A stretch of 64,000 nucleotides of DNA from Pseudo-nitzschia pungens (taxonomy: Eukaryota; Bacillariophyta; Bacillariophyceae; Bacillariales; Bacillariaceae): contig CM074768.1 in NCBI GenBank assembly GCA_037355855.1, positions 310,001-374,000 of the forward strand, written 5' to 3'. The position numbers were made by a program, and so were the translations under genes. The notes below the pieces were generated by a model, which saw only the letters and a list, made by a program, of their open reading frames with translations, had not been told where the DNA came from and searched no databases. This document shows positions 10,300 to 10,377 of the stretch, in pieces; within the stretch, counting starts at the first letter, position 1, and the number at the start of each line of letters is the position of its first letter.

Positions 10300-10377
10300 C
10301 TGCAATCGAACGCTCTACCACTGAGCTACGGGTGCAACAGAAGCACACGACGTGAATTGAACACGTGACCATTCGAA
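10300..10377 (-). tRNA. Circularly permuted tRNA-Cys(GCA)
   Basis: Read on the minus strand the order is 3' half, linker, 5' half. The 3' half (10377-10342) gives nucleotide 38, anticodon stem TCGAA, variable loop TGGTC, T-arm ACGTG-TTCAATT-CACGT, acceptor strand CGTGTGC and discriminator T. A 6-nt linker (10341-10336) follows. The 5' half (10335-10300) gives acceptor GCACCCG, TA, D-arm GCTC-AGTGGTA-GAGC, G26, anticodon stem TTCGA and TTGCAG, anticodon GCA. Joined in tRNA order, the anticodon stem pairs 5/5, the T-stem 5/5 and the acceptor 6/7 (one C-T mismatch at 5-68). U73 is the conserved tRNA-Cys identity base. Flanking leader and trailer form a bulge-helix-bulge with cuts at 37/38, so the expected route is splicing to a circle, then end trimming to open it. 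The A box lies downstream of the B box. No ordinary tRNA-Cys lies in this window. Confidence 0.92.

Follow-up and report, generated by a model that had tools for sequence, protein, structure and literature searches.

How could a locus in which the 3′ half of a tRNA stands upstream of its 5′ half give rise to tRNA-Cys, and does the nuclear genome rely on it? Such a locus lies in the window, as the whole 64,000-nt stretch of DNA analysed is called here. We hold with high confidence that it is a type II (37/38) permuted nuclear tRNA-Cys(GCA) gene, one of seven, with a predicted RNA circle leading to cytosolic tRNA-Cys. Judged from sequence, it is very likely that the nucleus relies for its tRNA-Cys on permuted genes that would be processed via this circular intermediate. 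The phenomenon is larger than the preliminary description of the locus stated, comprising seven loci, a bulge-helix-bulge (BHB), a TATA-like element and a T run.

Table 1. Parts of the permuted tRNA-Cys locus in the window, with its candidate transcription and processing signals
Feature	Position	Strand	Remarks
tRNA-Cys 3′ half, nt 38-73	10342..10377	-	T38 = 10377; discriminator T73 = 10342
6-nt linker TCTGTT, nt 73 to nt 1	10336..10341	-	CCA not encoded; no T4 run
tRNA-Cys 5′ half, nt 1-37, anticodon GCA	10300..10335	-	G1 = 10335; G37 = 10300
Leader tetramer GCAA, can pair with nt 32-35 (UUGC) as BHB central helix	10380..10383	-	4/4 pairs
Leader nt -7 (C), can pair with trailer nt +2 (G, 10298)	10384	-	Covaries over the seven copies
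T6 run, likely RNA polymerase III terminator	10292..10297	-	Starts 3 nt past G37
TATA-like TTATAT, likely TBP site	10413..10418	-	First base 41 nt 5′ of nt 38

The coordinates, strand order, 6-nt linker and division at 37/38 first proposed for the locus were exact to the base (Table 1). Rejoining the halves yields 72 nt that ARAGORN calls as tRNA-Cys(gca) with a score of 119, bearing out the earlier reading of the anticodon (GCA), of U73 and of the anticodon (5/5), T (5/5) and acceptor (6/7) stems; the D stem pairs at 4/4. The sole acceptor mismatch, C5.U68, has no counterpart in any other copy, and the window copy is the most divergent of the seven. Ordinary finders had been expected to be blind to the gene, and both ARAGORN and Rfam at its gathering score are indeed silent at the locus as it stands. 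With introns allowed, ARAGORN finds no tRNA in the locus and 600 bp on either side, and a genome search with the rejoined tRNA places no extra tRNA-Cys half near it.

For a covariance model (R3), the halves of five ordinary tRNAs of the window were swapped and the window tRNA-Cys gene was left out; it scores the locus at 63.3 bits (E 8.7e-19). Within the 79 kb searched, all seven copies (57.0-66.3 bits) outscore everything else. The next-best match (51.1 bits) is a tandem pair of ordinary tRNA genes, and a second window tandem pair scores 33.6 bits; the permuted-model score by itself cannot separate a permuted gene from a tandem pair. The details do separate them. Under model R2, the tandem matches at 41077-41153 and 25119-25196 contain 6/21 and 3/21 non-standard pairs, versus 1/21 at the window locus, and they are flanked on both sides by complete tRNAs, whereas the window locus has no other half nearby. 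An artefact of tandem genes is therefore rejected here, since the stems pair and the outer halves are absent. A complete tRNA on each side of the spacer is not found at the window locus, and among the copies repetition is confined to the C12 pair. The 17 R2 matches in the window include no further true permuted gene.

Tight tandem ordinary tRNA genes stand at 24994-25232 and 41039-41217 of the window. The tandem spacers of the window measure 4-8 nt by ARAGORN ends and 4-11 nt by Rfam ends, near the length of the permuted linker. Because the 6-8 nt linkers resemble these spacers, the family likely originated when the outer halves of two tandem tRNA-Cys genes were lost, duplication later multiplying the resulting gene.

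The assembly searched holds 66,883,101 bases (66.9 Mb) in 28 contigs, and counts from all searches of it are lower bounds. The rejoined tRNA gave 14 half-length matches at seven loci: one each on contigs C1, C7 and C11 (the window copy), two on C10 (C10a and C10b) and two on C12 (C12_0 and C12_1, 174 bp apart). Beyond the window copy there are thus six further copies on four other contigs. At 7/7 loci the 3′ half precedes the 5′ half on one strand, and the linker joins them at the acceptor end; no genome match to the rejoined tRNA covers both halves in ordinary order. Once rejoined, the other six copies are each called tRNA-Cys by ARAGORN, making 7/7 with the window copy. Their alignments display U8, G15, G18G19, U33, C48 and U54U55C56, the anticodon, T and D stems are intact in 7/7, and anticodon GCA and U73 are kept in all seven.

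The halves are 92-100% identical between loci, as against 15-47% for the flanks (60 nt on the 5′ side and 40 nt on the 3′ side, in ungapped comparison). The linkers measure 6, 6, 8, 6, 6, 6 and 6 nt; the C1 linker agrees with that of C10b at 5/6 bases and the remaining ones look unrelated. When offsets are allowed, two pairs are clearly related by duplication: the two copies on C12 form one, while C1 and C10b, with a tRNA-Leu stretch in common, form the other. The decayed stems and drift between copies expected of pseudogenes are not seen; the stems are whole except for one broken pair in one copy. That the halves stay so similar while linkers and flanks have drifted argues that the copies are not dead. 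Permutation is not general in this genome, because 7/7 initiator-Met and 14/14 Ser loci among those listed gave single matches spanning the anticodon, that is, in ordinary order. Cys is the only permuted isotype found so far, on the basis of initiator-Met and Ser genome-wide and of all tRNAs in the window. A broader tRNA survey with RF00005 was swamped by organelle copies, with 63/4671 candidates scored.

Whether the nucleus also encodes an ordinary tRNA-Cys bears directly on the importance of these loci, and none was found with two patterns and a similarity search of the genome. The 5′-half pattern, running from U8 to the anticodon in ordinary order, has 24 matches, against 15 when reversed. 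Of the 24, seven are the permuted loci, three are plastid-type tRNA-Cys, seven lie in plastid psaA coding sequence and the other seven do not fit the tRNA-Cys model. One of each kind of identical plastid string was inspected, and the plastid label rests on neighbourhood. The strict anticodon-to-T-loop pattern, which spans U33 to C61 and allows a variable loop of five bases, has 0 matches over the genome. As a positive control, all seven copies, once rejoined, satisfy both strict patterns, as do the tRNA-Cys sequences of human, plant and yeast. A looser form of the second pattern produces 132 matches, many of them repeats; among the matches listed (100 of 132) are plastid-type tRNA-Cys and a tRNA-Cys-like string in a mitochondrial-like stretch of C2. 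The check for an ordinary tRNA-Cys(GCA) elsewhere, raised at the outset, has thus brought up plastid-type genes and none of nuclear type. An intact ordinary family had been named as part of the evidence that would speak against the gene; the computations instead find no intact ordinary nuclear gene, and the same arrangement at seven loci within this genome. Because cysteine codons cannot go unread, the permuted genes would have to work if the assembly is complete.

Permuted genes pose a problem for transcription, as the B box precedes the A box and the usual internal promoter is out of order. Four of the seven copies have a TATA-like element within 60 nt (TTATAT at -41, -42 and -42, and TTAATAAAT at -44, counted from nt 38), compared with 1/11 ordinary window tRNAs in which an equal stretch of 60 nt matches anything on the list of TATA-like motifs, a list drawn up after inspection of the loci. 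The C1 and C10b copies follow an ordinary tRNA-Leu(CAA) at distances of 29 and 25 nt. Since no T4 run separates them from it, these two are likely transcribed by read-through from the tRNA-Leu(CAA) promoter, as far as sequence can tell. C12_1 lacks both a TATA-like match and any preceding tRNA gene of a different kind. Downstream, a T5 or T6 run occurs at most 12 nt past nt 37 in 7/7 copies, as against 1.6% of random window places, and no linker contains a T4 run (7/7). By eye, the spacers between tRNA-Leu(CAA) and permuted Cys in L037 and L055 may fold into a short hairpin, although their sequences differ. A perfect 14-nt palindrome, GGACACATGTGTCC, stands at 10392-10405 of the window, between the TATA-like element and the leader; none of the other six copies has it in its upstream 120 nt.

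Circularization would require the splicing endonuclease to recognize the ends of the precursor, and leader and trailer can indeed form a BHB with the tRNA. If the transcript extends from the leader into the T run, nucleotides 32-35 (UUGC) can pair with leader nt -3 to -6, flanked by two bulges of three bases each, A36-G37-(+1) and (-2)-(-1)-U38, a geometry that puts the cuts at 37/38. The central helix has 4/4 pairs at C11 and both C12 copies and 3/4 at the other four loci, so that the BHB is present with its strict motif in three loci only. At least 3/4 central pairs are expected by chance at 0.217 for one random leader; among slid registers, 93/495 reach at least 3/4 and 10/495 reach 4/4. 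Five leaders are treated as separate, although CAGCAT occurs in those of both C7 and C10a, so that the leaders do not amount to seven independent tests. The pair -7/+2 forms in 7/7 copies by three Watson-Crick types (C-G twice, U-A once, A-U four times). This covariation is equalled by 48/5040 trailer-to-leader reassignments, or 12/720 with one C12 copy left out. Of 108 leader/trailer registers, 4 attain 6/6 pairs, the observed one and three others. The outer helix beyond -7/+2 is not conserved. In C7 and C10a the nt 32/-3 pair, which is important for the eukaryotic endonuclease, is U.U. The nucleotide before the junction is G37 in human and plant tRNA-Cys and A37 in that of yeast. Minimum-energy folds of the seven precursors contain the 39-43/27-31 stem in 6/7 and the acceptor hairpin in 6/7; C12_0 folds without its anticodon stem and T arm, and C11 without the acceptor hairpin.

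The genome encodes a tRNA-splicing endonuclease domain (PF01974, 57.5 bits). A search for RtcB returned 0 candidates in it and was positive in 9/14 control genomes, and PF09511, used to look for a ligase, had no match anywhere and is therefore uninformative. Diatoms are stated to have a Trl1-type ligase in an excerpt of PMC4090602. Since the window holds intron-containing tRNAs, ordinary splicing at 37/38 seems to be in use. These are tRNA-Tyr (22749-22834) and elongator tRNA-Met (41117-41217), identified by reading the anticodon; ARAGORN left the former untyped and missed the latter.

A pathway from gene to tRNA can be proposed from these elements. RNA polymerase III would start from the TATA-like element in four copies or read through from tRNA-Leu(CAA) in two; an external start or read-through is suggested because the A and B boxes stand in the wrong order. 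The splicing endonuclease would then cut after G37 and before U38, and a ligase would join G37 to U38 to close the circle. RNase P and tRNase Z would subsequently remove the 6-8 nt linker, and CCA would be added to the opened tRNA.

Three other readings have to be weighed against a working permuted family. The seven loci could be dead relics of tandem tRNA-Cys pairs, the real gene having been missed or left unassembled, since short-spacer tandem tRNA genes in the window give permuted-like matches and the own-genome counts are minimum values. Such relics would not be expected to retain halves at 92-100% identity while ungapped flanks fall to 15-47%, nor intact anticodon, T and D stems together with a T5-T6 run in 7/7 and a TATA-like element near the same place in four. 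The same 5′-half pattern that found no ordinary nuclear gene did match the plastid-type ones. We consider relics very improbable. The C12 tandem merits separate attention as the one place where a 5′ half comes shortly before a 3′ half, with 96 nt between them, and ARAGORN reads it (L058 1494-1661) as an intron-bearing tRNA-Cys assembled from halves of two neighbouring copies. Read linearly in this way, with a 96-nt intron and its A and B boxes in normal order, it could be the functional gene and the other five loci accessory. Within those 96 nt, however, a T5 run follows 5 nt past G37 and a T6 run further on, and ARAGORN with introns allowed finds no such gene at the other five loci (600 bp), yet these are equally conserved. 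This linear gene strikes us as about as improbable as the relics. Genome annotations may list the intron-bearing tRNA-Cys of L058 1494-1661.

Least probable of the three, to the point of being nearly negligible, is that the loci are expressed mainly for small RNAs (tRNA-derived fragments) in place of mature tRNA. What prompts it is a Phaeodactylum small RNA of unknown origin from one 85-nt intergenic region, described in excerpts of PMC4247016, whose relation to these loci is a guess. Fragments alone would not account for the retention in seven copies of GCA, U73 and every stem, apart from a single pair in the window copy, and another source of nuclear tRNA-Cys did not appear in the genome searches. 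An active family of permuted tRNA-Cys genes thus remains the preferred reading.

Permuted tRNA genes of this kind are already known. According to excerpts of PMC3978253, type II permuted Cys(GCA) genes occur in the green algae Ostreococcus tauri, O. lucimarinus and Micromonas pusilla. They resemble the diatom family in isotype, in the 37/38 junction, in lacking an intron and in having a single linker between nt 73 and nt 1. Their linkers are longer (38, 26 and 12 bp, respectively, versus 6 or 8 in the diatom), and one Cys gene is listed per species in these green algal nuclei, in contrast to seven in the diatom; the likeness was judged from gene architecture. Cyanidioschyzon merolae, described in the same excerpts, shares with the diatom a BHB at the junction, a T stretch after the 5′ half and the lack of an encoded CCA. 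Most of its genes have a TATA-like element less than 50 bp upstream of the 3′ half, compared with 4/7 in the diatom. It differs in that its 11 genes, in a 16.5 Mb genome, cover several isotypes and four types of junction, whereas the diatom family is multicopy, limited to Cys so far, and resides in 66.9 Mb. Excerpts of PMC4494063 describe a chlorarachniophyte nucleomorph tRNA-Ser that likewise has a 37/38 junction and a very short linker, given as 5 bp for the Bigelowiella gene in PMC3978253. These nucleomorphs are relict green-algal genomes and the tRNA is Ser, in contrast to tRNA-Cys in a host nuclear genome.

The list of taxa drawn up initially was incomplete. To it are to be added the green alga Auxenochlorella (PMC12633428, in excerpt), the Amorphochlora nucleomorph (PMC4494063) and the Cys(GCA) genes of the two Ostreococcus species and M. 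pusilla. Its statement that no case was known in diatoms or other stramenopiles agrees with the literature search, in which no report of permuted tRNA genes in their nuclei occurs among the matches listed, mostly non-subscription literature seen in part. A seeming stramenopile precedent, PMC11528492, was set aside, as it concerns permuted 5S rRNA and not tRNA. The kind is familiar mainly from red and green algae, and what appears unusual is the multicopy family and its role as apparently the only nuclear source of its tRNA.

Further relatives were looked for in collections of viral, bacterial and archaeal contigs that hold no diatoms, so that the outcome has no bearing on conservation. Four candidate loci on viral contigs were rejected because they look like tRNA clusters (the places were read in three of the four, not L078, and the ARAGORN listing in all four); L077 carries an ordinary tRNA-Cys behind another tRNA-like stretch. 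Two patterns retrieved no permuted relative from the bacterial and archaeal contigs. Two large viral contigs, L075 (4230-4470) and L076 (3430-3650), contain close-set A-box/T-loop tRNA-like units without an ARAGORN call.

Permuted tRNA genes have been tied to small unicellular algae, with compact genomes discussed as a cause (PMC3978253, in excerpt). Here the lineage is another one, its nuclear genome measures 66.9 Mb, and seven permuted genes appear to be all that an essential isotype has to rely on. If this is true, the permuted arrangement can multiply and entirely replace the ordinary gene, and a standard tRNA finder would either miss nuclear tRNA-Cys or deliver one false intron-bearing gene, as ARAGORN does. 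A culturable group would also offer a natural multicopy source of circular RNA. The permutation of Cys(GCA) in prasinophytes too raises the question of convergence versus transfer.

A wider proposal is that permuted tRNA-Cys is the fixed and only diatom form, so that a major photosynthetic group of the ocean would always make an essential tRNA from an RNA circle, and that the Phaeodactylum 85-nt small-RNA locus is such a gene; we put it forward tentatively and consider it rather doubtful. Excerpts of PMC4247016 report that the most abundant small RNA of P. tricornutum maps to a single intergenic stretch of 85 nt on chromosome 2 (chr2:29039-29123), that there is also a longer band, that RACE failed and that no stable fold was predicted. 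A conserved fragment of it maps to Thalassiosira chromosome 7, and tRNA genes in that study were annotated with tRNAscan. As a guess, a permuted tRNA gene could yield this picture. The small-RNA sequence did not appear in the main text of that article, as far as its excerpts extend.

A diatom origin of the DNA is supported by the window itself, which encodes a protein of the Pfam DiatomPyrShell family (E 2e-56). Plastid PsaA from the assembly has its nearest counterparts in four solved photosystem I chains, which are presumably from diatoms. On chromosome-sized contigs, plastid-like and mitochondrial-like sequence was noticed at C5 (~5.86-6.01 Mb), C7 (~4.80-5.22 Mb), C24 and C2 (~7.12-7.16 Mb). 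These stretches lie within contigs or at their ends, the plastid part being repeated and on both strands, and are likely assembly joins or organelle insertions.
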